A DNA stretch of 64,000 nucleotides from Bradyrhizobium quebecense (GTDB taxonomy: Bacteria > Pseudomonadota > Alphaproteobacteria > Rhizobiales > Xanthobacteraceae), in NCBI RefSeq assembly GCF_013373795.3, contig NZ_CP088025.1, forward strand, positions 47,578-111,577. The letters are read 5' to 3'. Every line of letters begins with the position of its first letter. The first letter of the stretch is position 1. Below, piece by piece: positions 9,033 to 27,982 of this stretch. The position numbers were made by a program, and so were the translations under genes. Under the pieces are notes generated by a model. That model worked only from the letters and a program-made list of their open reading frames with translations, made no database searches and had not been told where the DNA came from.

Positions 9033-9076
9033 GGATCATTCCTCAGCCCCCAATGGGCTATTGCTATGTAGGCATT

Positions 9077-9493: not shown

Positions 9494-9502
9494 GGCGCAT
9501 TG

Positions 9503-10066: not shown

Positions 10067-10096
10067 TGCCGGTAAAGACAGCAGCGAGATGCTCTT

Positions 10097-10499
10097 ATGA
10101 CGTCACCCATCGTTGTCGACGCCTATTTTGATTCCCTCTTAGCGCGCGCGTCCTCAGCGGTCACCGTTCCGCTCATGCCAATTGCCTACACCGAGGCCGA
10201 CTTCAATAACTGCCATACCAACGCCGAAAAATGGGTCGCTGAACATCCTCAATACGTGGTGGTCAGGGGATGGTTTGTGGCCACAGGCGGGACCGCCCCA
10301 CCTGCTTCATGCGCATTCAGTGATAAGCGGACCGGTGGGGCTTGAAGACGTAACTCCACTCCGCGATCCAGGACTTCATTTTCTCCGCCACGAGGGAAGC
10401 GAGCAGGAATTCTTGGCGCTGGCCAAGAGCCATGCCCAACACATCCATGGCCTCGACTTCACTCTTGCTGTTCCACCCAGAATGGAAGATTGGCCATGA
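10097..10499 (+). pseudogene. Conserved hypothetical protein with frameshift
   Basis: A protein begins at 10097 (ADFNNCHTNAEKWVAEHPQY, then VVVRGWFVATGG) and loses its frame near 10300. The next frame continues it (HLLHAHSVISGPVGLEDVTP, then HFLRHEGSEQEFLALAKSHA) to a stop at 10499. One base gained or lost restores a single protein of about 130 residues. His, Cys and Asn are conserved-looking around FNNCH and LLHAHSV, but I assign no function. The last codons overlap the next start by ATGA, so the gene was part of an operon before damage. Confidence 0.5.
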
Positions 10500-11731: not shown

Positions 11732-12919
11732 TCACTGCCCTCCCCCATAAAGCCGTGGAAACCAGCGATCGACCACGCTGGCCGGAAATCCCAGCCGCAC
11801 CGGGCTACGGGTGGTCTCGGAAATGAGATAGCCTTGATTGATGAGGCCGTTCAGCACGGTGCGTGCCTGCCGGGTCGCATAGCCAGTAATATCGGCCGCG
11901 TCGCCACGGGCGAACTCGCCATCGAGGACCGCCATGCGCAAGATGGGCCATGAGCCCTTCGGTAGCCGCTTTGCCGCCGTCTCTTCCTTTGCCCAGATCT
12001 CCATGCGTCGCAGCAGTTCAGAAGGCTCCAGGAGGCCCTCCATGAAGTCGATTTGGTCGATGCAGGTTGAGAGGAAGTAGCGGCAGAATTCCGTAAGGCC
12101 TGCCATAGTGAGATTGCCACGGCCGTCGAGGTCGCCGCGTCGCGGCTCGTCCGCGGCCTGCAGCATGGTCTTGTAGTTGTCGACACTCCGCGCAAGGCCA
12201 CGCGAAACCGACCAGAGCTCTGATCCCACATCCAGTTCGCGCAGCAGCGCGTGCGAGAACAGTCGCGCAACGCGGCCGTTGCCGTCTAGGAAGGGGTGGA
12301 TCCACGCCAGGCGATGGTGGGATGCGGCGACGCCGATGATTTTACGCAGCCTCGAAAGGTTGGGCGACGTATAGCCTTCGGCGAACCGCTTGATAAACGC
12401 CGGCAGGTCGACCGGGTCAGGCGCGACATGTCGGCCAACGCGGACATGCTCGGATCTCAGCACGCCCGGCGCCATGGTGATCTTGCGGCCGGACTCTGGA
12501 TTTTCGACCACCAGCATTTCTGCCGGCAGGCGTTCGCAGAAGTTGCGATGCGTCCAGGTGATGAACGCTTCGGACATGACTGGGCTGGGCCCGTCCCCGC
12601 GGTCGATCATCCGTTGCACTTCAATATGCGCGCGCGCCTCGAGCTGGAGGTTGCGCCGCTCCGGCTCTGTTGCTAGCTCGTTGTTCATGGCGCGGTCGAT
12701 ATCGACCGGCAGTGTGTTGTGCCCCTCAATGAGGTTGGAGTAGTAACAGTTCATTGAGCGCACCAGGTCGCCGACGGACGCGCGCAGCACTGGATGCAAG
12801 CGGGTGGCAAGGCCGCTGGCCTTAGCCACCAGGTCAGTCGCCAGGTCCTCAAGTTCCTTGTTATCGTCGGGAAGAAGCGGCTCCATCGCTGCAATTGTGG
12901 TCATTTTTGCCGCTTCCAT
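11732..12919 (-). CDS. Fic-family protein with N-terminal inhibitory motif
   Basis: The 395-residue protein has the Fic core HPFLDGNGRVAR (residues 208-219), which catalyses AMP transfer, or another phosphate-diester transfer, to target hydroxyls. Residues 61-66 (SNLIEG) match the class II inhibitory helix motif S/T-x3-E-G/N, so activity is expected to be self-inhibited. The C-terminal third contains a winged-helix-like segment (ARGDAADITGYATRQARTVL, then NGLINQGYL), usual for Fic proteins with a DNA-binding tail. An ATG five codons downstream (12904) is an equally good start. It is divergent from the DUF2130 gene. Confidence 0.85.
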   Translation of the reverse strand: MEAAKMTTIAAMEPLLPDDNKELEDLATDLVAKASGLATRLHPVLRASVGDLVRSMNCYYSNLIEGHNTLPVDIDRAMNNELATEPERRNLQLEARAHIEVQRMIDRGDGPSPVMSEAFITWTHRNFCERLPAEMLVVENPESGRKITMAPGVLRSEHVRVGRHVAPDPVDLPAFIKRFAEGYTSPNLSRLRKIIGVAASHHRLAWIHPFLDGNGRVARLFSHALLRELDVGSELWSVSRGLARSVDNYKTMLQAADEPRRGDLDGRGNLTMAGLTEFCRYFLSTCIDQIDFMEGLLEPSELLRRMEIWAKEETAAKRLPKGSWPILRMAVLDGEFARGDAADITGYATRQARTVLNGLINQGYLISETTRSPVRLGFPASVVDRWFPRLYGGGQ

Positions 12920-12998
12920 TGCCGGTTATTTATTCAGCAAAGATAGGGCATTAGGCCCTAACGCGTCACCCTACTTTGCCGCTTTTTTTGCCGCTTCC
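12905..12998. repeat. Direct repeats near the Fic gene start
   Basis: TTTTTGCCGCTTCC occurs at the Fic start (about 12904-12917) and again near 12985-12998, with a shorter CTTTGCCGCTTT just before the second copy. They sit in the Fic upstream region and could be operator half-sites, possibly for the winged-helix tail of the Fic protein. Confidence 0.35.
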
Positions 12999-13227
12999 AC
13001 AGGGCATTTCAAATAGCTTGATCCCGTTTTGTTCTTATTTAGAATACATTCCTAGCTCAACAGCTTCTGCAGCCAGGGCTTTGTCGACACCTCAACCATG
13101 CGGGGTTTCGGTGGAAAACCGGTGACCAAGTCGATGTTCGGCTAGCCGCATGTGGACATCCAGCGCCGCGACATCGCAATCGCCGGCAGATGATGTTGAA
13201 TCCGGCCGTACCAATGAGGGGAAATTC

Positions 13228-14532
13228 ATGAGTCTCAGAGCAACCGGCGCCGGCGCTTCGCACGAGCCCACCCTGCATTGCCCGAACTGCAACCACGAAA
13301 TCAAGCTCACGGAATCGCTGGCTGCTCCCCTCCTTGAGGAAACACGACAGCGCTTTAATGAGCAGCTGGCCGCCAAGGACGCAGAGGTCGCCAGGAAGAC
13401 CGAGGCGCTGCGCAAGGAGCAGGACGCAGTCGCGCGGGCGCGCGAGCAGATTGAAGATCAGGTGGCGCAGCGGCTGACGGCCGAGCGCAGCCAACTGGTG
13501 GCGGCCGAGGCCAAAAAGGCCCGTGAAGCGGTTGCGGGGGATATGCAAGCCAAGGCGGCAGAGACCGCCGAATTGCGCAAGAACCTTGAAGCCAGCGATG
13601 CGAAGCTGGCTGAGGCGCAGCAGGCTCAGGCCGAGGTAATACGCAAGGAGCGCGCGCTGGCTGACGAAAGGCGTGAAATGGACCTCACGATTGAAAAGCG
13701 CGTCCAGGCCTCGGTTGACGACATCCGGGCGAAGGCCAAGCAGGAATCCGATGAGGCTGCGCGCCTGAAGGTCGCCGAGAAGGACCAGACCATTGAGTCA
13801 ATGTCGCGCACGATCGAGGAGCTGAAGCGCAAGGCCGAGCAAGGCTCGCAGCAGTCCCAGGGCGAGGTTTTCGAGGTTGAGCTCGAGGAGCTTCTGCGAG
13901 GCAAGTTTCCGATGGATGCCATCGAGCCGGTCGCCAAGGGAGAATTGGGGGCCGATGTTATTCAGCAGGTCAACGGCTCTGTCGGGCAACCCGCCGGCAT
14001 GATCCTCTGGGAATCCAAGCGGACCAAGGCCTGGAGTGATGGTTGGCTGGCCAAGCTCCGTGAGGACCAGCGGCGCTGTGGCGCCGACGTTGCCCTCATC
14101 ATTTCGCACGCCCTTCCCAAGCACATCGAGCATTTTGACCTGGTCGCCGGCGTTTGGGTGGCGCACCCGCGTTGCGCACTGGCCCTGGCGGTTGCGCTGC
14201 GTCAGTCCCTCATCGAGATATCGAGCTCGCGGCTGGTCCAACAGGGACAGCAAACCAAAATGGAGCAGGTCTACGAGTACCTGACAGGCACGAGATTTCG
14301 CCAGCGGGTCGATGCCGTCGTCGAGAAGTTCAACGACATGCGTGAGGATCTAGACAAGGAGCGCAAATTCATGGGTCGCCAGTGGGCCAAGCGAGAAACC
14401 CAAATCGTTGCGGTCATTGAATCCACTGTTGGCATGGTGGGCGACCTGCAGGCGATCGCCGGCAAGGCGATGCCGGAAATAACCAGCCTCGACACGCCGA
14501 TGCTTGAAGGGCCAGGAGCAGCCGCGGCCTAG
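13228..14532 (+). CDS. DUF2130 coiled-coil protein
   Basis: The 434-residue protein starts with a treble-clef-like LHCPNCNHEIKL (single CxxC). A long charged coiled coil follows (about residues 40-220, rich in AEVARKTEALRKEQD-type heptads). The DUF2130 domain comes last: GEVFEVELEELLRGKFPMD, KGELGADVIQQV, and MILWESKRTKAWSDGWLAKL. The D..ESK..K pattern resembles a PD-(D/E)XK-related nuclease core, as in RmuC-like proteins, but activity is unproven. ATG 13228 is preferred because GAGGGG precedes it. It is divergent from the Fic gene. Confidence 0.8.
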   Translation: MSLRATGAGASHEPTLHCPNCNHEIKLTESLAAPLLEETRQRFNEQLAAKDAEVARKTEALRKEQDAVARAREQIEDQVAQRLTAERSQLVAAEAKKAREAVAGDMQAKAAETAELRKNLEASDAKLAEAQQAQAEVIRKERALADERREMDLTIEKRVQASVDDIRAKAKQESDEAARLKVAEKDQTIESMSRTIEELKRKAEQGSQQSQGEVFEVELEELLRGKFPMDAIEPVAKGELGADVIQQVNGSVGQPAGMILWESKRTKAWSDGWLAKLREDQRRCGADVALIISHALPKHIEHFDLVAGVWVAHPRCALALAVALRQSLIEISSSRLVQQGQQTKMEQVYEYLTGTRFRQRVDAVVEKFNDMREDLDKERKFMGRQWAKRETQIVAVIESTVGMVGDLQAIAGKAMPEITSLDTPMLEGPGAAAA

Positions 14533-14705
14533 TGCAACCCACCCCAGATAGGACGAGGGGGAAATCCCCTCTCCCAAGGAAACCACCCTCGGGCTCTACC
14601 TTCAAAATTGCGAAGAACGGAAGCTATCCCCTCGCGCGACTGCCAAGATGATAATTGAGCAACTGCAGGACCTTTTTCCCGAGCTGAAACGATGATGGGC
14701 CTACA

Positions 14706-16676
14706 ATGGATAACGAGACGAACAGCGACGCAGAACCACAGCGCAGTGAGCCGGCGGACACCCTTCCGCCGGTTTGGTTGCGCGCCACGCTCGCCGATCT
14801 TGTGGGCCTCGAATTCGAGAGTCCGATCGCAGACTCGAAAAGCGCAGACAGCCAGGAACTCGCCGATCTGCTTCGGAAAGCCGCCGATGAAACGGAAGAT
14901 ACCCCCGCCGCGCGCGTATTTCGTATGCTGTCGGCTGTTGCCGGGATGCTGTTCCGGCCCAAGGATCGAAGTGAGCCGTTCGGTGCCATGGTGGTGTGGG
15001 CCGATGGTCGCCGGTCGCCCGTTGCTGCCGACTTTCGGGGGCCGCCCGTCGAAGTTCTGGCCGCCATGGCTCAGCGCGCGACGCATCCGGCTTTGCGGGC
15101 ACGCCTTTCTGATCTGTGCTGGTTTCTCGAACGAAAACGAGTCGACCTGGGCACTGCGGCGGTAGCCGCTTACGCCGAAATCTTGACGAAGGTCGATAGC
15201 GGAGCGCTTACATTCCGTTTCGACGATGACAAGGGGGCACTCAAGCACGACGCCCGGGATCTGCTTCGACGCGCCCTGCAAATTGGCCGGGCCGTGGGAT
15301 GGGATAAGCCCGAAGCGATGGCCGCTCGGACGATGGCAAGCGAATTGCGCACGAGGGCTATTCAAAGATCGCTCGTCATTCCTGCGCTTTGGTTTAGCGA
15401 ACTTGAGCTGGACTTCGGTATTTCCGATCCGGCTGCGATCGGAAAAGATATCGAGGATTTGATTGCGGCCCTGCCCGCTGAAACCGACGCACACAGCATC
15501 GTTGAACTCTGGCGGCTTGGTGCACGTGCCTACCACCTCGCCAAGCAACCTGACGACCAGCACCGCTGTCAGTCAGCCGCAGCCGACCAGTTTGTCTCGA
15601 TGGCCGACCGCCAACCGGTGGCGATGATGAGCTCGTCGATGCTGGCGAATGCCATAGCCGAGCTTCACGGCGTTCCCGGAAAGAAGGACAGGCGAAAAGA
15701 ACTGAGGCACCGGCTTATTGATGCCCAGGCGGGCATCGGCGAGGAAATGTCTGGATTTTCCATTCCGTTCAATCTGGAGGATATGGCTCGGCAAATTGAA
15801 CAAGGCGTGAAGCGCCAGCCGACCCTCCGCGACAAGCTGTTTGTCTTTGCCGCTCTCGAAAACTCGCCTGATCCTGCCGAGCTGGCCGAAGCAGCCTCCC
15901 AGTCAATCCGCGAACATCCGTTGACGTCGCTTTTTGGCACGTCGCATCACGACAGCGAAGGCAAAGTCGTTCACCGGACTGGAGGGGCCGGGTTTGGCGA
16001 TGACGGTGACACTAGTGCCATTCAACATCAAATTGCTCAAGACGAGCGCATTCGCCGTCAAGTCGCTGCGGCTGGCAAGATTGAGACTGCCCGTCAGGTG
16101 ATCGGGACTGATCATTCCTTATCGGACGATATCTTCGCGCGAATTCTCGTTCATAGCGCATTTGTTCCAAACGACCTGGTCAGAACGTTCAGCCGCGGCT
16201 TCCTGCGCTTCTTTCAGGGTGATTTCGTTAGCGCGCTATACATTCTGACGCCCTTGCTGGAGAATTCGCTGCGCCATGTGCTGAAATCGCATGGGCATGA
16301 TGTGACTATCTTCGACGATGCGACACAGACGCAGCAGGATCGCACAATCTCCTCCCTGTTTGAGCAGATGAGGAGCGAACTGGACACGATATTCGGTACG
16401 CCCATCACGGCCGATATCGAGCGCGTCTTCTTGAAGAAACCCGGCCCACATCTTCGGCATGCGCTATCGCACGGCTTACTGCATGACGGGGACCCCTACG
16501 GCCCCGACGCCGTCTATGCCTGCTGGCTGATTTTCCGGCTCTGCCTAATTCCACTGTTTCCACACCGGGAACAGCTACAGCTTCCATTCGATGAACCAGC
16601 GCCAAACCAACCGAGCGAGCCGCAAGCATCAACGCCCGAACCCGAGACCGGACAGAGCGAAAAGCCCGGCTCCTAA
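14706..16676 (+). CDS. DUF4209-like large protein with HEPN-type R-x4-H motif
   Basis: The 656-residue protein is mainly helical. Its C-terminal 150 residues carry FVSALYILTPLLENSLRHVL, then HLRHALSHGLLHDGDPYGPD. The arginine and histidine in RHALSH are spaced R-x4-H, the catalytic motif of HEPN ribonucleases, and the context resembles DUF4209. HEPN proteins often act as abortive-infection RNases. The N-terminal part has no motif I know. The tail (PAPNQPSEPQASTPEPETGQ) is disordered. A small hairpin (GAGGGG/CCCCTC, 14555-14571) lies upstream and may end the DUF2130 transcript. Confidence 0.65.
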   Translation: MDNETNSDAEPQRSEPADTLPPVWLRATLADLVGLEFESPIADSKSADSQELADLLRKAADETEDTPAARVFRMLSAVAGMLFRPKDRSEPFGAMVVWADGRRSPVAADFRGPPVEVLAAMAQRATHPALRARLSDLCWFLERKRVDLGTAAVAAYAEILTKVDSGALTFRFDDDKGALKHDARDLLRRALQIGRAVGWDKPEAMAARTMASELRTRAIQRSLVIPALWFSELELDFGISDPAAIGKDIEDLIAALPAETDAHSIVELWRLGARAYHLAKQPDDQHRCQSAAADQFVSMADRQPVAMMSSSMLANAIAELHGVPGKKDRRKELRHRLIDAQAGIGEEMSGFSIPFNLEDMARQIEQGVKRQPTLRDKLFVFAALENSPDPAELAEAASQSIREHPLTSLFGTSHHDSEGKVVHRTGGAGFGDDGDTSAIQHQIAQDERIRRQVAAAGKIETARQVIGTDHSLSDDIFARILVHSAFVPNDLVRTFSRGFLRFFQGDFVSALYILTPLLENSLRHVLKSHGHDVTIFDDATQTQQDRTISSLFEQMRSELDTIFGTPITADIERVFLKKPGPHLRHALSHGLLHDGDPYGPDAVYACWLIFRLCLIPLFPHREQLQLPFDEPAPNQPSEPQASTPEPETGQSEKPGS

Positions 16677-16737
16677 TCAGGAGGCTGCTTCTATCGCTTG
16701 CGGCAACAGGCTCCCATCTGCGTCAACAGGCCGTTGC

Positions 16738-17907
16738 CTATTGTCCACCGCGCCTTGCAGACGGAAAAACCCGCTCCAATACTTCGTTCAAAACGTTGAG
16801 CCTGACATTCAGTTCGGAAACCGCCTCGTGAGTCATCCTGACCCATTCATCCCAAGCGCGGGATTGGCCAACGGGATCACTCAGGATCGACGACCGGGAG
16901 GCGATTTGATCTTGTGTCGCCTTAATCATCCCTAGCGTGTCGGCCAGGTTCACGTCGGGGTTTACTTTAAACGATTCATCCAACGAATACTGCATGCTGC
17001 TGTCGTCGATCGCCTGGGCGGCCATCATCATCGCCTGCCATTTGCCCTCCGATAGCAGTTCGAACGCGAGGTCATCGATGAACTTGACCTGCGCTCGCGC
17101 CTTGTTGGCTTCGGCATGATCCGGCAGCCGATTGGCGGCGATGCATGCAGAGTTGATGAACGCCAGGCATTCAAAAAAGCTGGTCGGCTTTTTAAGGGTG
17201 AGCGTCGGATACTGGGCGAAGAACTCACCGATGGGGACGGATAGCCTGGCATAGTATGAATTCAACAGCTTGGATTGACCTGCCATCGGCGATACCGCCC
17301 GGTCTCCATCCAGAGCGCTCATTTGTTCGATATTATTCGGCGAAAGTATGCTTACGAAGACTTCGGACGTGACGTCGGCGAAGTGGCCTGATTTTTCAAG
17401 GGTTGCCGGCGTGGTCTTCATCGGATGGATCGATGCAAACTCTGGCGCGCCAGCGGCCCGGTAAACCGCCGCGACCAAGGCCGAGCAGAACGTCTTACCG
17501 TCGCTCGACTCCAATATCGGAACACCAGGCAGTACGGATCGCAGGGCGGCCGGCACAGAGTATTCCTTTCCGAAGAACTTGAACGCTTCACTTGCGGCCG
17601 CGCGTGCGATAGCTTGATTGGGGTATCGAAGGACGCGCACATGCTTGAGGTCATGCACGAAACAATTCTGGACGCTTATGTTTGAGACACCATCGGGTAG
17701 CGCCTCGATAAGTGTCGGCAGCGCCGTGCAGATAAGCGCATGACTGAAATTGCCGCCGGTTACCTTCGCAATGATGTCCGACCTGCGTTTGCCCTTGAAC
17801 GAGATTGCTTCCGCATTGCGCGTAAGAATGACATCCCCGGGACGGAGCTTCGTCAGGTCGGGCTTGAAAACCCACAAGCCGTTGTATCTCGGATCTTGCT
17901 GTTTCAT
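16738..17907 (-). CDS. NlpC/P60-like (YiiX-type, permuted papain-fold) protein
   Basis: I place the start at the ATG at 17907 (MKQQDPRYNGLWVFKPDLTK); the longer upstream reading is not protein-like. The product (389 aa) contains RPGDVILTRNAEAISF, then TGGNFSHALIC, and about 110 residues later KTFCSALVAAVYRAAG. A His block before a Cys block is the order found in circularly permuted NlpC/P60 (YiiX/LRAT-like) proteins, which are thiol hydrolases acting on peptides or lipids. The remaining 200 residues are helical and unassigned. It is divergent from the broken dioxygenase gene and convergent with the HEPN gene. Confidence 0.65.
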   Translation of the reverse strand: MKQQDPRYNGLWVFKPDLTKLRPGDVILTRNAEAISFKGKRRSDIIAKVTGGNFSHALICTALPTLIEALPDGVSNISVQNCFVHDLKHVRVLRYPNQAIARAAASEAFKFFGKEYSVPAALRSVLPGVPILESSDGKTFCSALVAAVYRAAGAPEFASIHPMKTTPATLEKSGHFADVTSEVFVSILSPNNIEQMSALDGDRAVSPMAGQSKLLNSYYARLSVPIGEFFAQYPTLTLKKPTSFFECLAFINSACIAANRLPDHAEANKARAQVKFIDDLAFELLSEGKWQAMMMAAQAIDDSSMQYSLDESFKVNPDVNLADTLGMIKATQDQIASRSSILSDPVGQSRAWDEWVRMTHEAVSELNVRLNVLNEVLERVFPSARRGGQ

Positions 17908-18073
17908 CGTTGGCCTAATAGGACAATTAGGACACGGAACGAACACTAACACCGTAGCTATCGATGCGTAGGTGCCATCCTTGCGAGAAGATACGCTGAA
18001 GCTGCTTGGGAAAATACAAAAGAAATAAAGTAGGCCTAAAGCCTGATCGGCGAAGCCGGATGCTCCTATCTGA

Positions 18074-18095
18074 CCTCGACGATACGATGGTAAGT
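18074..18095 (+). promoter_or_regulatory. 22-bp motif shared with 20968-20989
   Basis: CCTCGACGATACGATGGTAAGT lies 16 bp upstream of the start at 18112. An almost identical copy (20 of 22 bases) occurs upstream of the gene at 21032. Two independent upstream positions suggest a shared promoter or regulator site. Confidence 0.45.
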
Positions 18096-18111
18096 TGTGT
18101 AGGTTGGAAGG

Positions 18112-18805
18112 ATGCAAACCAACCGCACAACCGTCGTTCAGTTCACCGGTAAGGCCAATCTTGTGGATCGTGTACTGCAGGACGGTTGGTTCAAATCGAC
18201 CGCGACCGCGATGGCTATGATATGCTCTCGGCGCCGGAAAATATCGCGAAGCTGCTCGGTAACCCGATTATGGGCCGTGCCGGCAGAAGATCGAGCCCTT
18301 GATACCAACAGCGCCAGCTAGGGCGAACGCGAAATCACTGAGCGTGGTGCACGGCCTCGGATCATTCCCGATGCACACGGACGGCGCACACCGGCTCCAG
18401 CCGCCCCGGTTCGTGGTACTGGTGTGTGCTTCACCAGGCAGGTCCCCGGTCCCCACGACCTTGATGCGGTTTCGCGACTTGCAGATCGGCACATCAGAGC
18501 GAGCGCAGCTTGAAACGGCGCCCTTCCTCGTACGAAACGGCAGACGGTCATTCTATTCAACCATTTGCAGCCGATCTCGTCCCTTCATCCGGTTTGACGC
18601 AGGCTGCATGGTGCCGCAGAGCTCCGAAAGTGAGACGAGTGTCAAGCTGATCGCACATCGTGCGAATGAGGTTGGCTTCGCCCCTGTGCACTGGCGAACG
18701 GGAGATGTTCTCGTCATTGATAACTGGAATGTGCTGCACGGACGCGGTCTCGGGGTGTCTGAAGCATCGTCCGACAGGAAACTTTTGCGGGTGAGCGTCC
18801 AATGA
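18112..18805 (+). pseudogene. TauD/TfdA-like dioxygenase with frameshifts
   Basis: The best-preserved part (18299-18805) carries FPMHTDGAH (the HxD iron ligands), NWNVLHGRG (distal His) and a final Arg block (SDRKLLRVSV), the Fe(II)/2-oxoglutarate dioxygenase pattern of the TauD group. Upstream, the same protein continues in a second frame (DGYDMLSAPENIAKLLGNPI) and apparently a third (ANLVDRVLQDGWF) starting at ATG 18112. Frame changes are needed near 18200 and 18300. The gene is most likely inactive unless these are sequencing errors. Its end overlaps the next gene by ATGA, so it belonged to that operon. Confidence 0.6.
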
Positions 18806-19761
18806 AGAAACCGGCTCCCAAAGCGCTAGCTATGACCACAGCCCTTTCGGCGGATGCGCTGATGGGAAAGTCACAGACCTATATCGGCCGCGCCCTGGCG
18901 GCCAAAGCGGCCCGGTCGATGGGCGAATACCAGCTCTGGGCATCACTGGCACTCGAATTGGTTGGCAAGGCAGCTCTAGCAAAGATCCACCCGTGCCTTG
19001 TGGCCGACCCGAACAGCTCGGCTTCGTTGTTTGCGGCGGCAGGACGGAGCGTAGACACGGATATCAAAACCATCATCGCAAAGACGGTGTTCGATCGGCT
19101 CGCACATGTATCGAAGCGGTTTGACGAAAGCACGAAGAAATTCTGCACCAACATGAGCGAGAAGCGGAATGCCGAGCTGCACTCGGGTGAGGCTCCGTTC
19201 GAGGGCGTGATTGCGTCCTCTTGGGAGGGCCGCTACTGGCACACAGCGGAAATCATTCTTGAGGCCAGTGACAGTTCGATCGAAGCTTGGCTCGGTGCCG
19301 ACAAGGCCAAGGCCCCCAAGGAATTGCTCGCCGAATACACGCATGCGACTGAGCAAGCGGCGAAGGTTCGCGTGCAAACGGCGGCTGACGCCTTCGGCGC
19401 ACGTCCGAGGAAGGAACGCGAAGAAGCGCACGCTAAGGCAGCCGCGATAGGCCTATGGAACATGCGGAACAGTTTCAGACAACACGCCGATGACATTTGG
19501 GAAGCGGAATGCCCGGCATGCAAATCACGGTCGTTCCTTGCGGGGGTCAAATATGACGAGGAGGTATCCGAGGATGACAACGAAGATGATCCCTATGAAG
19601 AGTTGGTCGATGTTTCTTATGTCGCGGAAGAATTCCTGTGCCCTTCCTGCAACCTGCATCTTGAAAGCCGCGACGCCATCGAGGCCGCTGGGTTGGAAGT
19701 CGATCGCATTGAGACAGAAACCCGCCAGCGCGAATACGAGCCGGACTACGGCAACGATTGA
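18802..19761 (+). CDS. HEPN-like protein with C-terminal zinc ribbon
   Basis: The 319-residue protein has an N-terminal helical domain with EYQLWASLALELVGKAAL and, about 80 residues on, EKRNAELHSGE. RNAELH gives R-x4-H, and the two elements together are the usual HEPN signature. The C-terminal part has ECPACKSRSFLAG and FLCPSCNLHL, two CxxC pairs forming a zinc ribbon interrupted by an acidic loop. A role in RNA cleavage or binding is an inference. It overlaps the dioxygenase remnant by ATGA. The next gene, a nuclease, follows after 35 bp. Confidence 0.65.
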   Translation: MKKPAPKALAMTTALSADALMGKSQTYIGRALAAKAARSMGEYQLWASLALELVGKAALAKIHPCLVADPNSSASLFAAAGRSVDTDIKTIIAKTVFDRLAHVSKRFDESTKKFCTNMSEKRNAELHSGEAPFEGVIASSWEGRYWHTAEIILEASDSSIEAWLGADKAKAPKELLAEYTHATEQAAKVRVQTAADAFGARPRKEREEAHAKAAAIGLWNMRNSFRQHADDIWEAECPACKSRSFLAGVKYDEEVSEDDNEDDPYEELVDVSYVAEEFLCPSCNLHLESRDAIEAAGLEVDRIETETRQREYEPDYGND

Positions 19762-19796
19762 GCTGGGTTACAGATTCTTTCAGAAGAGAACCCGAT

Positions 19797-20834
19797 ATGC
19801 CTACTTTGACGACCATGCGACTGCCGCCGCCGAAGGCCTGGCAGGAATTTGAGGACCTTGTGCTCGCCTCGCTCGGCCAGCGCTGGAAGACAACGACACT
19901 ACAGAGGAACGGCCGATCGGGCCAGGCGCAGGCCGGCGTCGATGTCTACGGGTCTGACGATATCGGAAGAAGGGTCGGAATCCAGTGCAAGAACTTCAAA
20001 GGCGCGCTGGGCCTGAAGGCCGTTCAAAAGGAAATCGAACGCGCAGCAAAATTCAAGGGCGGTCTTTCTGCGCTCTTCGTGGCGACAACCGCCGAGACGG
20101 ACGCGCGGCTGCAGGAGGAAGTGCGCCTTCTGTCGGATACGCGTGTCGCAGCGGGTAACTTTGCCGTGGCACTGCTGTTCTGGGATGACATCGTTGACGG
20201 TCTCGTAGCCAACCCTGCCCTGCTTCGCGCTCACTATCCACAAATTCAGATTGAGAGTCGGGCGATGCCAAGTCGAGAGCGGCTCTTGGCTGCCCTGGAG
20301 TTTGGCTACTACGCACCGTATTTATGGCACTACGTTCTGCTCACATTTGGCGAAGTCGGCCAGATGGCCAACACGGAGCCGGACACGGTCAAAGTCATTG
20401 CCCGAATGGTTGAGCAGCGCGCACAGCAGCTGTTTGCTCCGAAAGAAGCAAAAGCAATTACCAAGTGCATCAAAGCGATCGTCGATGGCAGCTATGCCAC
20501 GCGTAAAGACCAAGAGTCGTGGGATCACGTGGAAGATTGCGCCAAGCGCATCGCCACGCATGCCAGTACGCTTTCATCGCTTCTGCCGATTTCGGAAGGG
20601 AATGTGTTGGAAACGGGGATCACTCTCGGGCGCCTCTATCACCACGTGGATGATCTTCCGTCAAAGACCGTGCGCGATGATGTACGGCGGCGCTTGCGGG
20701 GCATCTTGCCGGCCGAGTGCCAGAAAGAGGTTGATGGCAGGTTCAAGGCTGCGGCCAAAGTATCCTCGGGTTATACGTGGGCCTCGAGGATATATACCTG
20801 TCTCGACCGGGAAATTCGCTGGGCTTCGTTCTAA
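19797..20834 (+). CDS. PD-(D/E)XK (Mrr-like) nuclease-domain protein
   Basis: With the start at ATG 19797 (AGAAGAGAA precedes it) the product has 345 residues. The N-terminus WQEFEDLVLASLGQRWKTTT, then GVDVYGSDDIGRRVGIQCKN, is a restriction-endonuclease-like core: Glu, then Asp, then Gln-x-Lys. This is the layout of Mrr-type nucleases that cut foreign or modified DNA. The following strand-helix (GLSALFVATTAETDARLQEE) fits the fold. The C-terminal 200 residues are helical and may be a sensor or partner domain. It directly follows the HEPN-zinc ribbon gene, so the two may be one defence unit. Confidence 0.7.
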   Translation: MPTLTTMRLPPPKAWQEFEDLVLASLGQRWKTTTLQRNGRSGQAQAGVDVYGSDDIGRRVGIQCKNFKGALGLKAVQKEIERAAKFKGGLSALFVATTAETDARLQEEVRLLSDTRVAAGNFAVALLFWDDIVDGLVANPALLRAHYPQIQIESRAMPSRERLLAALEFGYYAPYLWHYVLLTFGEVGQMANTEPDTVKVIARMVEQRAQQLFAPKEAKAITKCIKAIVDGSYATRKDQESWDHVEDCAKRIATHASTLSSLLPISEGNVLETGITLGRLYHHVDDLPSKTVRDDVRRRLRGILPAECQKEVDGRFKAAAKVSSGYTWASRIYTCLDREIRWASF

Positions 20835-20967
20835 CCCGATAGGTTTTGGTGCTGGGCTCCCATGCGCTGATGACGATCCTAAAACACTCTCTCACCCCGT
20901 TTGGCGTCCAAGTCGAACTCCCGTATCTCAACACCGGGGCCGACGAGATGCCGCACGATTGATCCGC

Positions 20968-20989
20968 CCTCGACGATACGACGGTAGGT
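20968..20989 (+). promoter_or_regulatory. 22-bp motif shared with 18074-18095
   Basis: CCTCGACGATACGACGGTAGGT lies 42 bp upstream of the start at 21032 and repeats the motif upstream of 18112. A short leader frame (MPPARNPSHD) begins at 21007 and overlaps the downstream ATG. Confidence 0.45.
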
Positions 20990-21031
20990 CATGTAAGATA
21001 CAAAGCATGCCTCCAGCACGAAATCCGAGCC

Positions 21032-21679
21032 ATGACTAATCTTAAGAAACTCAGCGAAGACACCTTCAGGGCCGCGCAAAGCCCGGCAATTTGGCTGCTA
21101 ACGGCGGAGCGGTTGCGTGATGGCGCAGAAGCGATCCTTACGCACGAACAAGCGTTTGAGGTCTCTTACTTCCAAGCCCATAGCGCCGCCGTCCAAGAAG
21201 CTATGGCGATCGCCTATAGCGAAGGCAATGACTCAGGGGTTGCAGACATCAAGGCACGCGCGCCAAACTATCCTGCGGCGCAGCTTCTGTATGGTTACGC
21301 ACTGGAAAATCTGTTGAAGGGAATCTGGGTCGCGAAAGACCCTTCGCTGATCTCCAGCGGCAAACTGAACCGCAAATTAGCCTCGCACGATGTGGTGAAG
21401 TTGGCGAAGCAAGCGGGTTTTGTACTCCACACGCAGGAAGTACCCGTTGCACAAGCGCTCTCAAGACTCTCGGTATGGGCGGGGCGCTACCCGGTCGCGC
21501 TGCTTGAAGCTGAGTTTGCTTCCACGCCGAACGCCGACGAACTTCTGGACTACGGTTCGCGCCATCCGATTGTTAAAGCGATGTATGCACGCGGTCACGC
21601 TGAACTGACAGCCCTGCTCCCGAAACCGATCTCAAACCGGCATGGCGCTGTCGTGGTTTTCCGCCAACCCGGAACGTAA
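21032..21679 (+). CDS. HEPN-like hypothetical protein
   Basis: The 215-residue helical protein contains YPAAQLLYGYALENLLKGIW, then KLASHDVVKLAKQAGF. This helix pair plus an SHD-x2-KLA block is the layout seen in uncharacterised HEPN or AbiV-like proteins. I see no clear R-x4-H, so catalysis is uncertain. It may be the non-catalytic kind. It is a single gene with its own upstream motif. The 280 bp that follow, up to the methyltransferase, hold no gene I can support. Confidence 0.5.
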   Translation: MTNLKKLSEDTFRAAQSPAIWLLTAERLRDGAEAILTHEQAFEVSYFQAHSAAVQEAMAIAYSEGNDSGVADIKARAPNYPAAQLLYGYALENLLKGIWVAKDPSLISSGKLNRKLASHDVVKLAKQAGFVLHTQEVPVAQALSRLSVWAGRYPVALLEAEFASTPNADELLDYGSRHPIVKAMYARGHAELTALLPKPISNRHGAVVVFRQPGT

Positions 21680-21996
21680 CGGGCATTTCAGCCGCCTGCC
21701 CGGCGCGCCCGACCCGGCTTCCATCGTGGATGTGGGGATTTTCACCCTTCGGTGACCGGTCTCGATGCCAAGCCAGTCTATGCGGCGTGGGTGCGAACGT
21801 GGCGGCGCCCAGAGCCCAGTCCCACCTTATATCGGCGGGATTCCCCGTCCCAATGGCCCACAATCTGGGCCGCCAGCCGGGTGAAATCGCCTGTGTAACG
21901 CTACTTTTGCCAACTTGCGGTTGACAAGCAAAATGGGCAGAGTCCCTGCGACCCATCCAATTGCGGGAAAAGCTCCGTTTTGAAAAGCCGATTACC

Positions 21997-23139
21997 ATGC
22001 CACGCCACCAAGTTGCTGGGAAACAAGCTACCGGCAGCACAAAACGCATATGGACAGCAAGTTCAACGGTAAAGTCCGATTGGACCTTCCATCAAATCGC
22101 GCCTTACATCGGCCGAATGAAAACATCGATGGCGCGTGCGCTCATCCTTGATAATTCAAAAAAAGGCGATCTGATTGTCGATCCCTTCTGCGGAAGTGGT
22201 GCAGTTGCACTCGAGGCGTTCGCCAGCAACCGTGGGGTAATCGCAGGTGATTGGAATCCATATGCTGTCCTGTTGACGCGGGCGAAGCTCTTTGCCCCCA
22301 AGAGCGAACAAGCGGCATTGAAGCGGCTAAAGGCCACTTGGAAATTGTCGCGCGAATTGTTGCCAAAGCAAGACCTTAGAACAGTGCCAGCTTGGGTACG
22401 CCGCTTTTTCCATCAAGACACACTGCGAAATGCGCTCGCGTTTCGCGACGCATGCGTCGAGCGGGGTGACGATTTCCTTCTTGGGTGTCTGCTTGGTATC
22501 CTACATCATCAGAGACCGGGCTTTCTCTCGTTTCCAAGTAGCCATCTCGTTCCCTATCTTCGTAGCCGGAAATTCCCAAAGAATCTATTTGCGTCGCTTT
22601 ATGAGGAGCGCGAGGTTTTACCTCGGCTACAAGCAAAGGTTCTCCGTACCTATAAGAGACCCATACATAATCGTGGTTTGACACGGCGCATACATCGAGT
22701 GGACGCGCGGAAGTTCCCAAGGCCAAAGCAAATATCGGCCGTCATTACGAGTCCACCGTATATGAACGAACTCGACTACGTCAGGGACAATCGATTGCGG
22801 CTTTGGTTCATTGAGCGCTCACTCCCGAAGGGGTTAGAGCTCGTGGGGCGCGACCGTGAAGCTGCGTTTCGTGAACTGATGCGCTCTGTGTGCGCGCGGC
22901 TTGCACCCAACATAAAAAAGGGTGGCAAGTTCGTTCTTGTCGTCGGCGATGCGACACGCGGTAGTGGTCGCAAGGGAAGGACGGGAGCAATAACGCGCCA
23001 GCTATTTAAGGACGATGACGCGTTTAGAGAGTTTCACCTCGAAAAGAGCTATCAGGATAAAATCCCGGATGTCCGTCGTTCGCGGCGTGAGTGTAAAGGG
23101 ACGCGGTCTGAAACAATCTTGGTCTATCGGAAGCGCTGA
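21997..23139 (+). CDS. DNA methyltransferase (N4-cytosine/N6-adenine type)
   Basis: Starting at ATG 21997 the enzyme has 380 residues; a TTG at 21961 would add 12. Motif I (DPFCGSGAVALEAF, about residues 62-75) binds S-adenosylmethionine and motif IV (TSPPYMNELDY) is the catalytic site of exocyclic amino methylases. The order motif IV after motif I with FxGxG DPFCGSG is unusual for the simplest classes and fits circularly varied DNA modification methylases. The protein ends RSETILVYRKR. It opens a cluster with a kinase 44 bp downstream and has no adjacent restriction subunit, so it may mark self DNA for this system. Confidence 0.75.
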   Translation: MPRHQVAGKQATGSTKRIWTASSTVKSDWTFHQIAPYIGRMKTSMARALILDNSKKGDLIVDPFCGSGAVALEAFASNRGVIAGDWNPYAVLLTRAKLFAPKSEQAALKRLKATWKLSRELLPKQDLRTVPAWVRRFFHQDTLRNALAFRDACVERGDDFLLGCLLGILHHQRPGFLSFPSSHLVPYLRSRKFPKNLFASLYEEREVLPRLQAKVLRTYKRPIHNRGLTRRIHRVDARKFPRPKQISAVITSPPYMNELDYVRDNRLRLWFIERSLPKGLELVGRDREAAFRELMRSVCARLAPNIKKGGKFVLVVGDATRGSGRKGRTGAITRQLFKDDDAFREFHLEKSYQDKIPDVRRSRRECKGTRSETILVYRKR

Positions 23140-23183
23140 GAGTTTTTCGATTTCCATCTCTTTTTTCTTTTTGGAATTTCATC

Positions 23184-23924
23184 ATGACTCGACCACCAAA
23201 AGACGATGCATGGTGTACCAGCCTTGCGGGCAAGACGGTCGAACGGTATAAATTGGATGAGTACATCGGCGCCGGACGGATTGGTTATGTCTACAAGGCC
23301 CATCTCGAAGAGGTTCCAGGCGTATCCCGCGCCGTAAAATGCATTTTCGGAGATTTGAAAGAAGGCTGGGAACACGAACTGCAGAAAGTCATGCAATTGC
23401 AGGTCGTCGAAAGCGTGGTCCACTTCCATCACTTAGGCGCTGCCCAAATATCGCACGGTGGGAGAACACGCACCTGTCAATTCACCGTTTGGGATTACAT
23501 TGCCCCCGGACAAGACCTGAAGCGCTATCTAGCCCGCGTCAAAAAGATTCCGGCGACATTTGTATTCGCTGTGGTGGAGACCATTCTGCGCGTTTTGTAC
23601 CAATGCGAGAGAAACGGGGTCTCCCGGCATGGTGACTTGCACGCTGGCAACATTTTGATTGGCGACGACACGAATGCACGGTTGGATGATCAACTCCAGC
23701 TGCGCGACCCGATCTATGTTTCCGATTTCGGCTACGGCACCAGCGGCGCGGTTATGAGTCCCAAGGACGATTACGCCGGGCTCGCTCAGATATTCAATCA
23801 AATGGTCTCCTATGTTGAATATGAGAAGGCGACACCGACCGACCGGCAGTTGCTTGAAGCAATGAAACTGACTTCGGGAAGTTATTGCGTGAGCCGGAAG
23901 GCGCCGAGCGCAGAAGCCCGATGA
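23184..23924 (+). CDS. Serine/threonine protein kinase-like protein
   Basis: The 246-residue kinase domain has the glycine loop IGAGRIGYVYKA, the ATP lysine in RAVKCIF (Lys52), the catalytic loop HGDLHAGNIL (Asp151, Asn156; HGD replaces HRD) and DFG (Asp181). All residues needed for phosphotransfer are present. It is short after DFG and carries no membrane helix or sensor domain, so it is probably cytoplasmic and controlled by partners. Its stop overlaps the start of the ATPase gene by ATGA, which strongly suggests that the two products act together. Confidence 0.75.
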   Translation: MTRPPKDDAWCTSLAGKTVERYKLDEYIGAGRIGYVYKAHLEEVPGVSRAVKCIFGDLKEGWEHELQKVMQLQVVESVVHFHHLGAAQISHGGRTRTCQFTVWDYIAPGQDLKRYLARVKKIPATFVFAVVETILRVLYQCERNGVSRHGDLHAGNILIGDDTNARLDDQLQLRDPIYVSDFGYGTSGAVMSPKDDYAGLAQIFNQMVSYVEYEKATPTDRQLLEAMKLTSGSYCVSRKAPSAEAR

Positions 23925-25879
23925 AACTCTTAAAGATGCTTGGGGATCTGAAGCAGCGTATCCAAATCGGCGAAAGGGTCCCGGTGGACCGCAACGATGG
24001 GGGACCAACAAGCCCAGCGCCCCCAGCGGATGGTTCATCGGTCGGCCAGTTCCAAGTAAGCGAAATGATCGGTGATCGCTGGGAGTGGTGGAAGCGATTG
24101 TTCGTGCCGACCGTACCATCGCACTCAAAAATCTTGGCATTGGACATCCCGACCGTGGTTACTGGACCGCGCGGGTGCGGCAAAACCATGTTCTTCCGGC
24201 GGTTGAGTGAGAGGCTAATCGTCGAATGTGGCGAAGTCCCCGAGCTGCAGAGTGCGAAGCGATTTGTCGCGCTCTACGTGAACGCTAATGATTTTGCAGA
24301 TGCATTCGCCCACTACCCAGAAAGCCCCACGCCGGAGGATGAGCGCCGCCTCATCTGTTACGCTAACCTGTGCATTCTTGCCGACTTATTAAGCGTGCAG
24401 TCGGCCAGGGCCGGCCGCAAAGAACCTGCCACGGACAAGCTACTTTCACTCGTGCAACAGTGGCTCGTACCTCCGGCATTCAATTCGCTCGTAGTCGGCG
24501 AAGATCGGCTGGAGCGTTATCGCGCCGTGTTGGAGCAAACCAAGTGGTCGTTCTCGAAGCAGGGTTCAGGGAAGCTTTTTCCGGGTTACAATGAGTTGTC
24601 GCAGCATCGGTGGCTTCCGGAACTCGTGCGGCAAGCGCGGACGTGCTGCCCGTGGATCGGTGATCGTACAGTACTTCTCTTCGTTGATGACTTTTCTACA
24701 CCTCGCGTTTCGATGGCCATGCAGAAAGTTTTGAACCGATTGCTACTGCAGCGATCTTCCGAGTTTTTAGCAAAGGTCGCCACGGAAGCTCGCAGTACTT
24801 TTCTTCCTGAGGATTCAAGCGGAAAAGTGCTCCAGGACGGTGATGATTATCAATTTGTTGATATGGGAGAGGAGTCGCTCTTCCTTCCAGACTCTCAACG
24901 ACTGGCCTTCCTAGACCAGGTTTTCAGCCGGCGACTGCGTATCGAACCACGCATGCCGCAAGCAAGCCTCGGCCTCAAAGCGCTGCTTGGTCACCAAGGC
25001 TTGTCAAAGACTGAATTTGCCCGTCGCTTGCGCATGTCGCATGTCGGTAAGCCGCCGTCAGAACAGATTCCTGTCCACGGCGACTCCCAGCGGCGCGGAA
25101 GATCAAGGGCTCGCATTCTATATTATGGCGACGACGTGTTTTCGAACCTTTGGTCCGGTGACACGCGAACAATGATTCAACTGGTAAGTGACGTATTCGA
25201 GGCCGTGGTCAAAAAGGACGGTTCTTCGCAGATCACGGTCCCGGTAGAGCCCGCAATCCAAGATCGGGCATTCCGAGACCGCGGAGGAGAGTGGCTGAAC
25301 TCAAACACGCGGAACGAGCCCACCGACCCGTTGCGTGTCAAAAATGGATTGGTTGATGCACAACGATTGCAACCTGGATTTGCCTTGTGCGGGACATATG
25401 GCTCCCATTTGAAGGCCATTGTCGAAGCCTTCGTCGCAGCGGCCACCCAGCTACTGACTGGGCCGACATACGAAATGAAGGAAAACGGCAATACGCGCGA
25501 AGTCCCGCGAATGGCTTTTCGCTTGGAGATCGTTGATGAGTTTCGGCTGAACGGGCTGGCCGAGGAAATTTATCGAGATCTTGTACGGTACGGGCTGTTC
25601 ATGCTCGACAATCGCGGAAAGAGCGTGCGAGGAGCCTTTGTCCCACGCTTATACCTTCGACGTCTCCTTCTGCCCTATTGTACCCTCGCCCTCTCCAAAC
25701 GCGACAGCGTCGCGATGACTTGCGAGCAATTTCGTCAACTTCTGTTGACCCCTGACTCCTTTAAGGCGGGATTGACCCGCAAGATTGCATCAAAGGATCA
25801 GCTCTCGATGTCCTTTGACCCGGCTCAATTCACGCCGGAGCCCGGCGATGAATATAACGATCTAGGCGACGCGTTATGA
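23921..25879 (+). CDS. P-loop ATPase (ORC/CDC6-like or STAND-like)
   Basis: The 652-residue protein begins at the ATG overlapping the kinase stop. Walker A is GPRGCGKT (residues 82-89) and Walker B TVLLFVDDFS. The region between them is long and irregular, as in ORC/CDC6-type and STAND NTPases of conflict systems. The C-terminal half has helical segments and no known motif. It ends in an ATGA overlap with the next gene. I infer an ATP-dependent sensor or switch working with the kinase. The exact NTPase clade cannot be fixed by eye. Confidence 0.65.
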   Translation: MKLLKMLGDLKQRIQIGERVPVDRNDGGPTSPAPPADGSSVGQFQVSEMIGDRWEWWKRLFVPTVPSHSKILALDIPTVVTGPRGCGKTMFFRRLSERLIVECGEVPELQSAKRFVALYVNANDFADAFAHYPESPTPEDERRLICYANLCILADLLSVQSARAGRKEPATDKLLSLVQQWLVPPAFNSLVVGEDRLERYRAVLEQTKWSFSKQGSGKLFPGYNELSQHRWLPELVRQARTCCPWIGDRTVLLFVDDFSTPRVSMAMQKVLNRLLLQRSSEFLAKVATEARSTFLPEDSSGKVLQDGDDYQFVDMGEESLFLPDSQRLAFLDQVFSRRLRIEPRMPQASLGLKALLGHQGLSKTEFARRLRMSHVGKPPSEQIPVHGDSQRRGRSRARILYYGDDVFSNLWSGDTRTMIQLVSDVFEAVVKKDGSSQITVPVEPAIQDRAFRDRGGEWLNSNTRNEPTDPLRVKNGLVDAQRLQPGFALCGTYGSHLKAIVEAFVAAATQLLTGPTYEMKENGNTREVPRMAFRLEIVDEFRLNGLAEEIYRDLVRYGLFMLDNRGKSVRGAFVPRLYLRRLLLPYCTLALSKRDSVAMTCEQFRQLLLTPDSFKAGLTRKIASKDQLSMSFDPAQFTPEPGDEYNDLGDAL

Positions 25880-26976
25880 CGCGACAACTTCAATCATCTC
25901 TCATGCAAACACTGCCTGGAATGGTCAGGACAGAGGAAATTGCGCTTACCACCGGCGATGTTTTGGTCCATGCGCCAGGCTTCGAGGATCGTACACTAGC
26001 GGTTACACGCGGACTCAACGTCAATGGAAAGGCCAGCGGCATACTGCTCCGCTATGAACCCGCCAACGCGACAAACCGACTGGCCGAGGTGCGCTCGTCT
26101 CTTGAAAAGCAAGGAATCGCCGTTTCCGATGACGACGTCCTAACCTATGACCGCTTTTTACCGGGTGATTTTGAAGATCGGCTTCGATTGCGCTTCAAGC
26201 TCCTGTCAGCGCAAAGGGTCGTGATCGATATTTCGACGATGTCGAAGCTTGCGATCTTATTGGTTCTCAACGCCTGTCTGGGCTCCGAATTCGACGTGGA
26301 TGTCATATATTCCGAAGCGCAGCACTATGGCCCGACCAAGGAAGAATTCGCAAACGCCAAGAAAGCCGGCAAGATTCAGCAGCCTTCCCTGCATGTATTC
26401 AATGGCATTCACGGAGTTGTCCGGGCGGACTCGCTGGCAAGCGTAGCAATGCAGGGACAATCGACCGCGGCCATCGTGTTCATGTCGTTCAATGACGCTT
26501 TGACGCAATTGCTTCTTAACACCGTCTATCCCGGGCGTCTTTTCCTCATAAACGGAAAACCCCCAGTTCATTCCTGGCGGGAGGCGGCAATGGCATGGGT
26601 CCACGAGCAGGTCAGGCGTGAATGGAACGAGGACAATCCTCTTGAGCCGAGCGGCTCCAACCTCCCCGCTCGGACGGCCTCGACCCTTGATTACCGTGAG
26701 TCTGTGGGTATTTTGCTCGATTTGTATTGGAAATTATCAACCAACCATCGGGTTCTTTTGGCTCCGAGTGGCAGCAAAATGCAGACGGTGGCTTGCTTTT
26801 TGGCGAAGGCGCTTCATCCTGACATTCATATTGAATATCCCTCCCCGGAAGGGTTTGCAAAAGAGTATAGTACTGGCACCGGCGACCGGTGGCTCTTGCC
26901 ACTTGGTAAGCTCGGAAGACTCCTATCGGAAATTGAAGGGGCGGAACGTCAGAATTTCTTGGAGATAGCTATATGA
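25876..26976 (+). CDS. Uncharacterised Rossmann-like protein of the kinase-ATPase cluster
   Basis: The 366-residue product overlaps the ATPase gene by ATGA. It has an alternating strand-helix pattern with recurrent motifs: HAPGFEDRTLAV near the N-terminus, VVIDISTMSKLAILLVLNAC, DVIYSEAQHYGP, and near the C-terminus LLAPSGSKMQTVACFLAKAL and YSTGTGDRWLLP. It looks like two Rossmannoid halves that could bind a nucleotide or signal molecule. I do not recognise a named family. No membrane segment or nuclease motif is visible. Its tight coupling to the kinase and ATPase makes it a core part of that cluster. Confidence 0.6.
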   Translation: MTRQLQSSLMQTLPGMVRTEEIALTTGDVLVHAPGFEDRTLAVTRGLNVNGKASGILLRYEPANATNRLAEVRSSLEKQGIAVSDDDVLTYDRFLPGDFEDRLRLRFKLLSAQRVVIDISTMSKLAILLVLNACLGSEFDVDVIYSEAQHYGPTKEEFANAKKAGKIQQPSLHVFNGIHGVVRADSLASVAMQGQSTAAIVFMSFNDALTQLLLNTVYPGRLFLINGKPPVHSWREAAMAWVHEQVRREWNEDNPLEPSGSNLPARTASTLDYRESVGILLDLYWKLSTNHRVLLAPSGSKMQTVACFLAKALHPDIHIEYPSPEGFAKEYSTGTGDRWLLPLGKLGRLLSEIEGAERQNFLEIAI

Positions 26977-27058
26977 GGACGACACATCGACCATTGGGCG
27001 GCGCTAAAACGGAGACGGGTTCTCGCGCACGTGGAAGTATGAGTCAGGGGTCATAGAG

Positions 27059-27982
27059 ATGGATCAGCCGGAGCGTCTATCTCGTCCCAAGGTCGATGCG
27101 ATCGACAGCATGCTCGGCAAGCCGTTTTCAGTGCTCGACGACGGATTCGTCCGGGTCGTAGACTATATGGGCGATGACGCTGCTGTGGTCCTGGCCGCTC
27201 GTGTTTCTTATGGCGCTGGCACCAAAAAGGTCCAAGAGGACAGCGCGCTCATCCGCTATCTGATGCGTCACCATCACACGACGCCATTCGAGATGTGCGA
27301 AATCAAGCTCCATGTTCGCGTGCCAATGGATACCTGGCGCCAATGGATACGCCATCGCACTGCGAGCGTGAACGAATACTCGACACGCTATTCTTTGGCT
27401 ATCGATGCCGCGCAACGAACCCCGGAAACCGAATGGCGTCTTCAATCAACAGAGAACCGGCAGGGCAGTTCCGGCCTTTTGGATGGCAAGGCTGGAGCCG
27501 ACCTATCAGTTGCAGAAGATGAACTGCAGAAACATGCTCGAAAGGTTTACGAAGACCGCCTAGCCGCCGGGGTCGCGCGCGAACAGGCGCGCAAGGATCT
27601 GCCGCTTTCGACTTACACTGAGGCTTATTGGAAAGTCGATCTTCACAACTTGCTAAACTTCTTGCAGCTTCGCATGCACAAACATGCGCAAGCCGAGATC
27701 AGGAGTTACGCCACGATCATTGGTCAAGAAATCGTTGCAAAATGGGTGCCGACGGTTTGGCAAGCGTTTCTAGATTATCGTGACCAAGCCGTCACTCTGT
27801 CCCGCATCGAAGCCTCCATTATCTCTGCGATAGCAGCCGGAAAGCAGGATCACGCGAAGTCGTTAGCAGAGCAATTCGGCCTATTGAACAGGAATCCCGA
27901 CGGTAGTCTCAAAGCAAACCGTGAACGACGCGAGCTTCAGGAAAAGCTATCGACGATGGGATTGACGTTCAATTGGACATAG
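27059..27982 (+). CDS. thyX: FAD-dependent thymidylate synthase
   Basis: The 307-residue protein contains the ThyX signature RHRTASVNEYSTRYS (residues 98-112), which binds FAD and dUMP, and MHKHAQAEIRSYA near the C-terminus. ThyX makes dTMP from dUMP using methylene-tetrahydrofolate and reduced FAD. It is somewhat longer than many ThyX enzymes. It lies 82 bp after the Rossmann-like gene on the same strand, a surprising place for a nucleotide-synthesis enzyme. It could belong to the cluster or be separate cargo. Confidence 0.85.
   Translation: MDQPERLSRPKVDAIDSMLGKPFSVLDDGFVRVVDYMGDDAAVVLAARVSYGAGTKKVQEDSALIRYLMRHHHTTPFEMCEIKLHVRVPMDTWRQWIRHRTASVNEYSTRYSLAIDAAQRTPETEWRLQSTENRQGSSGLLDGKAGADLSVAEDELQKHARKVYEDRLAAGVAREQARKDLPLSTYTEAYWKVDLHNLLNFLQLRMHKHAQAEIRSYATIIGQEIVAKWVPTVWQAFLDYRDQAVTLSRIEASIISAIAAGKQDHAKSLAEQFGLLNRNPDGSLKANRERRELQEKLSTMGLTFNWT

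Follow-up and report, generated by a model that had tools for sequence, protein, structure and literature searches.

A five-gene cluster of Bradyrhizobium quebecense is, judged from its sequence, probably a candidate anti-virus system, with counterparts in unrelated bacteria. The cluster lies in a window of 64,000 bp (the whole stretch of DNA analysed here), which corresponds to positions 47578–111577 of contig C4 (NZ_CP088025.1; 111,577 bp), one of the four contigs of a 9.17-Mb genome. All on the + strand, it encodes a DNA methyltransferase (21997–23139), a Ser/Thr kinase domain (23184–23924), an ORC/CDC6-like AAA+ ATPase (23921–25879), a tandem CARF (CRISPR-associated Rossmann fold) protein of 366 residues (25876–26976) and ThyX, a flavin-dependent thymidylate synthase (27059–27982). 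The sequence-only reading of this DNA, which had proposed an undescribed defence system, gave the arrangement correctly: the methylase lies 44 bp ahead of the kinase open reading frame (ORF), thyX begins 82 bp past the CARF gene, and the kinase/ATPase and ATPase/CARF junctions both read ATGA. We assign a probability of about 0.6 to the reading of the locus as a mobile defence module, borne on a plasmid, with a core of methylase, kinase–ORC/CDC6 ATPase and tandem CARF protein, and with ThyX as a recurrent accessory.

A locus scan with one genome per species returned 11 loci, six close and five distant, and two further close loci came from IMG/VR, scanned with the CARF alignment. Together with the window, the close set comprises nine loci (the window, L002–L007, L013 and L014, the last two having L037/L043 and L038/L044, respectively, as their contigs) from Bradyrhizobium (two), Acidobacteria (two), Desulfobacterales, Doudnabacteria, Burkholderiales and two IMG/VR contigs. 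In all nine, the kinase–ATPase is preceded by the methylase and directly followed by the CARF gene, and in eight of them the methylase overlaps the kinase–ATPase or lies at most 0.42 kb away. Comparison of the window with L002, the closest relative of the cluster (record 'Bradyrhizobium sp. Oc8'), yielded ratios of nonsynonymous to synonymous substitution rates (dN/dS) of 0.02–0.08 for the five genes, indicating purifying selection. Because the order is kept in 9/9 close loci and these ratios are low, the cluster reflects more than chance. Recurrence, on which the sequence-only reading had proposed to check its grouping, was borne out for four genes: those for the methylase, the kinase, the ATPase and the 366-residue protein are found as a group in genomes that are unrelated.

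The distant set comprises seven loci (L008–L012, L019 on a Loktanella plasmid, and L057 in a genome from the phylum of L010); L045, which carries the same ATPase as L011, was left out of the count. Methylases of the same family precede a fully fused kinase–AAA–CARF protein in two of the seven (L009 and L057). The other distant loci have different partners: a different methylase (PF01555, 4e-54) follows the kinase–AAA–CARF pair in L008, in L019 the downstream genes include a cytosine methylase and a NaeI-type endonuclease, and DruA (PF14236, 2.8e-76 and 1e-82) directly adjoins kinase–AAA and CARF pairs in L010 (6423–7562) and L011 (13088–14287). Among the neighbours tested in L012, neither a methylase of this or another family, nor a NaeI-type endonuclease, nor DruA was seen. 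The system is rare. Within the genus, 2 of 265 genomes carry it, within the phylum 1 of 398 and within the L003 phylum 1 of 297, and the distant family was detected in 2/395 and 2/294 genomes of two other phyla; one of the latter two matches (G1463) was dropped, as its locus, L058, matched no query.

The kinase and the ATPase, described in the sequence-only reading as a pair of genes linked through an ATGA overlap, are on sequence comparison a single predicted gene that is interrupted in the window copy. They share one frame, with the kinase in front, in 20/20 aligned relatives. The ATPase relatives listed number 120, of which 114 have 755–1004 residues and six have 595–697; the nearest has 898 residues and 97% identity. 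DNA comparison with L002 placed a shift of the reading frame at about 23865 (23860–23870, + strand), which was also seen against P0121; intact copies exist, and the window kinase ORF is the truncated N-terminal part of a kinase–ATPase protein. Because of the shift, the first ATGA overlap is a by-product rather than a design; the ATPase ORF also has an in-frame TTG start at 23885. The catalytic positions K52, D151, N156 and D181 all precede the shift, are present in the window and are invariant in 20 aligned relatives, so the residues named in the sequence-only reading stand. Its claim of a complete kinase does not, since the ORF departs from the shared sequence at about residue 228 and the modelled kinase fold of an intact relative reaches about residue 261, so that the end of the fold is lost in the window. 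The dN/dS against L002 is low for both the kinase part (0.028) and the ATPase (0.022), and the shift is therefore recent, tolerated or a sequence error. With its kinase frame interrupted, the locus in this strain may have lost its activity, provided that the shift is neither tolerated nor an error in the sequence.

The ATPase matched PF24389 (2.5e-24) and the PADLOC model PDLC01925 CARF_STK_AAA (8e-18), and it carries a Walker A motif, GPRGCGKT, with an Arg inside the P-loop and a Walker B motif, LLFVDD. A structure model of the kinase–ATPase was confident in part (mean predicted local distance difference test score 57), and its C-terminal half was not interpreted; the rows returned by a structure search with it were all kinases, and the ATPase fold is assigned from Pfam.

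The 366-residue protein, for which the sequence-only reading could name no family, is a tandem CARF protein with a CARF (Rossmann-like) fold. PADLOC CARF6 models matched it, and the top 22 rows of a structure search with it were CARF proteins. CARF identity among the nine close loci spans 39–94%, and the motifs DIS(T/S/A)MS(K/R) and P(S/T/A)GSK are conserved in 9/9; these are compatible with the predicted binding of a nucleotide, be it cyclic oligoadenylate or another. The CARF alignment retrieved two rows only from PDB sequences (E 0.66–0.67). The role in which CARF sensors are mainly known is the reception of signals from Cas10. Cas10 was above the family cut-off in one of 12 genomes searched, that of L004 (G655), with a model that is not specific, because E. 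coli also matches it. The idea that Cas10 or mCpol supplies a signal common to these loci was rejected, neither being found in the Bradyrhizobium genomes; from the sub-cut-off Cas10 result there and the absence of mCpol from the genomes searched it follows that the ligand may be something other than cyclic oligoadenylate.

The methylase contains the S-adenosylmethionine-binding motif DPFCGSG and the catalytic motif TSPPY, in the order motif I then SPPY. It matched PF01555 (8.9e-13), PF01170 (2.3e-9) and a PADLOC Type II methyltransferase model (5.1e-18), and its matches in the PDB were DNA modification methylases (best E 1e-9). TSPPY was invariant and the motif-I block kept in 10/10 aligned methylases. 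Relatives of this methylase occur in other gene settings on IMG/VR contigs: with a ParA-like ATPase and SIR2 (SIR2_2) in the Pfam-scanned L039 and L041, whose gene layout L040 shares (about 7920–10980 in all three), and with a GmrSD_N gene and a HEPN-like gene in L042 (7932–10824). We read the methylase as a putative modular self-marking enzyme of defence loci, a role suggested by its motifs and neighbours. A defence setting is supported by the neighbours: same-family methylases accompany SIR2 or GmrSD and HEPN genes, distant pairs lie next to DruA or another methylase or near the cytosine methylase and NaeI-type endonuclease, and PD-Lambda-4_A comes after thyX in L002. The defence role proposed in the sequence-only reading agrees with both the PADLOC matches and the neighbouring genes.

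On balance, the predicted module is best read as a methylation-gated, CARF-controlled kinase/ATPase defence. The methylase, as its family and motifs suggest, would mark resident DNA at a specific sequence. The ORC/CDC6-like ATPase would load on or survey DNA, as its family implies, and respond to unmarked or replicating foreign DNA. The tandem CARF protein, which in some relatives is fused in one chain with the ATPase–kinase, would bind a nucleotide signal and license, or perhaps restrain, the ATPase–kinase. The kinase, in which the catalytic residues are present, would then phosphorylate a host or invader target and so halt growth or replication. More speculatively, ThyX could provide ThyA-independent deoxythymidine monophosphate while the thymidine supply is attacked or changed.

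Several observations weigh against this reading. The kinase–ATPase frame of the window itself is broken. The core lacks a constant effector, be it a dedicated nuclease or another established one. No endonuclease lies between methylase and CARF in the window and seven other close loci, and a GmrSD_N gene does so in L006 only; upstream neighbours were annotated in some of the loci. There, the methylase is 2.3 kb from the kinase–ATPase, with the GmrSD_N gene and a gene for 211 residues between them (7482–9381). In the two Bradyrhizobium genomes, Cas10 matches stayed below the family cut-off (three in G000, the window genome) or were absent (G571), and mCpol was absent from the seven genomes searched. 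Last, thyX is missing from six of the nine close loci, two of which (L004 and L006) have just 1.0 and 0.6 kb of downstream DNA, and the core was absent, within the available flanks, from 80/80 viral ThyX loci. As a separate observation, the insertion in L006 resembles L042 in layout.

The assignment of ThyX itself is secure (TIGR02170, 180 bits against a cut-off of 87.9; PF02511, 3.4e-50), and its translation contains RHRTASVNEYSTR, which matches RHRxxSxNxxSxR, the ThyX catalytic motif. Its place in the system is the point at which an alternative survives best. Mobile DNA commonly carries ThyX genes, and this one could be a passenger that belongs to the island rather than to the system, a possibility that we hold at somewhat under even odds. 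The low count in close loci (3/9) and the viral loci without the core fit a passenger, as does a ThyX tree in which the rows linked to the core are scattered and poorly supported; the tree lacks valid outgroups and support at deep nodes, and only this scatter was used. A passenger accords less well with the three loci that do carry thyX (the window, L002 and L003, from two phyla), in all of which it lies directly after the CARF gene, with a gap of 81–82 bp or an overlap of 7 bp. Nor does the host lack a thymidylate synthase: in each of the three genomes the cluster copy is the sole ThyX, and one ThyA is encoded elsewhere.

Contig sizes also argue against a passenger, although the linkage that they measure is indirect evidence of shared contigs and not of adjacency. 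Of 120 ThyX relatives listed, 22 lie on contigs sized identically to those of CARF relatives (120 likewise listed), and 23 match a CARF or ATPase row in exact longest-contig size, whereas a control in which the sizes of CARF or ATPase rows were shifted by 1–50 gave a mean of 1.3 and a maximum of 4. When the comparison was confined to contigs of at least 5 kb, 13 of 51 ThyX rows matched a CARF or ATPase row, against a control mean of 0.2 and a maximum of 3. The grouping of ThyX with the other genes by the sequence-only reading is supported as a linkage above chance. Because the viral loci are without the core and the linked rows are scattered in the tree, ThyX is judged a recurrent accessory and not part of the core. 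Two further genes were seen beside thyX. In L002, PD-Lambda-4_A (12027–15827; 1037 bits) follows it directly, with an overlapping ORF of 384 residues (15824–16978), and in the Acidobacteria locus L003 a RibD_C (reductase-like) ORF lies shortly after it (15185–15742), a possible folate or flavin link.

The module could instead serve a plasmid or island in its own maintenance or signalling, the loss of methylation, once the plasmid is lost or while DNA replicates, freeing the kinase in a manner like post-segregational killing. C4 carries a RepC gene (C4:90184–90705, about 42607–43128 of the window, − strand) and is therefore probably a repABC plasmid; RepC was also found on contigs C2 and C3 of this genome. 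That location, the rarity and patchiness of the system, and a methylase that is constant where a restriction enzyme is not, would all suit self-maintenance. However, long contigs from many phyla carry relatives too and the neighbouring genes are of defence types, and we consider this explanation unlikely as a replacement for the defence reading, although self-maintenance and antiviral roles are compatible with each other. Plasmid records contained no near DNA match to the cluster and one distant protein match, and phage records contained no protein match.

A divergent subtype of bacteriophage exclusion (BREX)/phage growth limitation (Pgl) or of the methylation-associated defence system (MADS) is more improbable still. 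Here the trio would be PglX, PglW and PglY, or Mad2, Mad6 and Mad8, with the rest lost or encoded elsewhere. The functional trio is the same, and the available text of PMC12839542 describes BrxC as ORC/Cdc6-like and PglW as having kinase domains, so that a methylase and an ORC/Cdc6-like ATPase recall BREX/Pgl types 1 and 2 and the kinase recalls type 2. MADS, as far as the available part of PMC12904381 and the NCBIfam name of MAD6 show, likewise combines DNA methylation as a self mark with a kinase, and weak PADLOC matches were obtained for mad2 (2.9e-8), mad6 (2.4e-10) and mad8 (0.0075). However, PglZ was found in none of seven genomes searched, the window genome included, and no BREX/Pgl model was among the 17 PADLOC families matching the kinase or the three matching the ATPase at E up to 1; membership in BREX/Pgl was rejected on these grounds. 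The CARF protein, moreover, is not part of the BREX core described in the available text (PMC12839542). The likeness to Pgl/BREX drawn by the sequence-only reading thus holds as shared logic and not as membership. MADS was rejected on scores, since MAD6 reached 29.7 bits against an NCBIfam cut-off of 460, and of Mad1–Mad8 only mad2, mad6 and mad8 matched, weakly, among the nine window ORFs scanned (14706–27982). Finally, a plain Type II restriction–modification remnant, a methylase minus its nuclease beside an unrelated kinase–ATPase–CARF unit, is very improbable: the closest PADLOC methylase matches among those listed (25 of 53 matching families, all Type II methylases and mad2) and a nearby Mrr-like gene would fit it, but the methylase accompanies the kinase–ATPase in 9/9 close and 2/7 distant loci.

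The named family that the window does resemble is STK-AAA-CARF (PADLOC CARF6--CARF_STK_AAA, PDLC01925). In the portion of PMC4012209 available to us, this multidomain family was described in 2014 as a Ser/Thr kinase, an AAA+ ATPase with an Arg inside the P-loop and a CARF domain, with an N-terminal Zn ribbon and a C-terminal winged helix–turn–helix, and CARF was proposed to act in a kinase-mediated pathway. The window has the same kinase–AAA–CARF order, and its GPRGCGKT fits the described P-loop. Three consecutive window ORFs matched PDLC01925, a single protein of 1187 residues, in the order kinase, ATPase, CARF (model spans 116–190, 319–685 and 884–1025). The window differs in that its kinase is split off by the frame shift and its CARF protein is encoded by a separate gene, as in its close relatives, so the correspondence extends to domain order and not to one polypeptide. 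Pfam recognised neither the Zn ribbon nor the winged helix–turn–helix in a kinase–ATPase whose model is only partly confident. The locus further adds a methylase and, in part, ThyX, partners unmentioned for the family in the available portion of PMC4012209.

A kinase–AAA–CARF architecture known since 2014 and represented in PADLOC is accordingly not undescribed, as the sequence-only reading had supposed; the constant methylase and the recurrent ThyX are what we did not find in print, which makes the system partly undescribed. No account joining this methylase or ThyX to kinase–AAA–CARF was found in the available parts of the literature searched, which did not cover the 2020 CARF classification (PMC12839542, PMC13092281, PMC12669027, PMC10853773, PMC12458937, PMC12904381, PMC11090510, PMC4012209). 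A thymidylate synthase does occur in another defence system, one reported by DefensePredictor according to the available text (PMC13092281). The ancillary CARF effectors of Type III CRISPR systems (Can1, Card1, Csm6, Cam1 and Cad1) differ from the window CARF protein, which has no fused effector. The link to Druantia, compared through DruA only, is confined to the distant loci L010 and L011; DruA was not seen in the window cluster or among the annotated neighbours of the close loci.

A CARF pair with a kinase–ATPase and a methylase, where no Cas10 exceeds the cut-off, raises the questions of who makes the signal and what an immune kinase phosphorylates. Tentatively, the locus might represent a separate class of immunity, epigenetically gated and outside CRISPR and BREX, in which methylation denotes self, the paired CARF domains sense a nucleotide of infection whose source is not Cas10, the kinase coupled to the ORC/CDC6 ATPase executes, and a ThyX arm protects or reshapes the thymidine pool. 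If functional, the recurrent ThyX would tie thymidylate supply to the immune response. The 2014 proposal of a kinase pathway for CARF, as given in the available portion of PMC4012209, is now testable in a compact locus of three to five genes, of which L002 offers an intact copy.

Upstream of the cluster, neighbours p21032, p18802 and the gene with an Mrr-like restriction endonuclease domain (19758–20834, + strand; PF04471, 4.8e-6) were rejected as members of the system, the first because it matched L002 only and the other two because neither matched any of L002–L014. Further upstream lies a PDC-S39 candidate defence gene (14706–16676, + strand; PADLOC 3.6e-103, Pfam DUF7380), which gives the plasmid another predicted defence gene.

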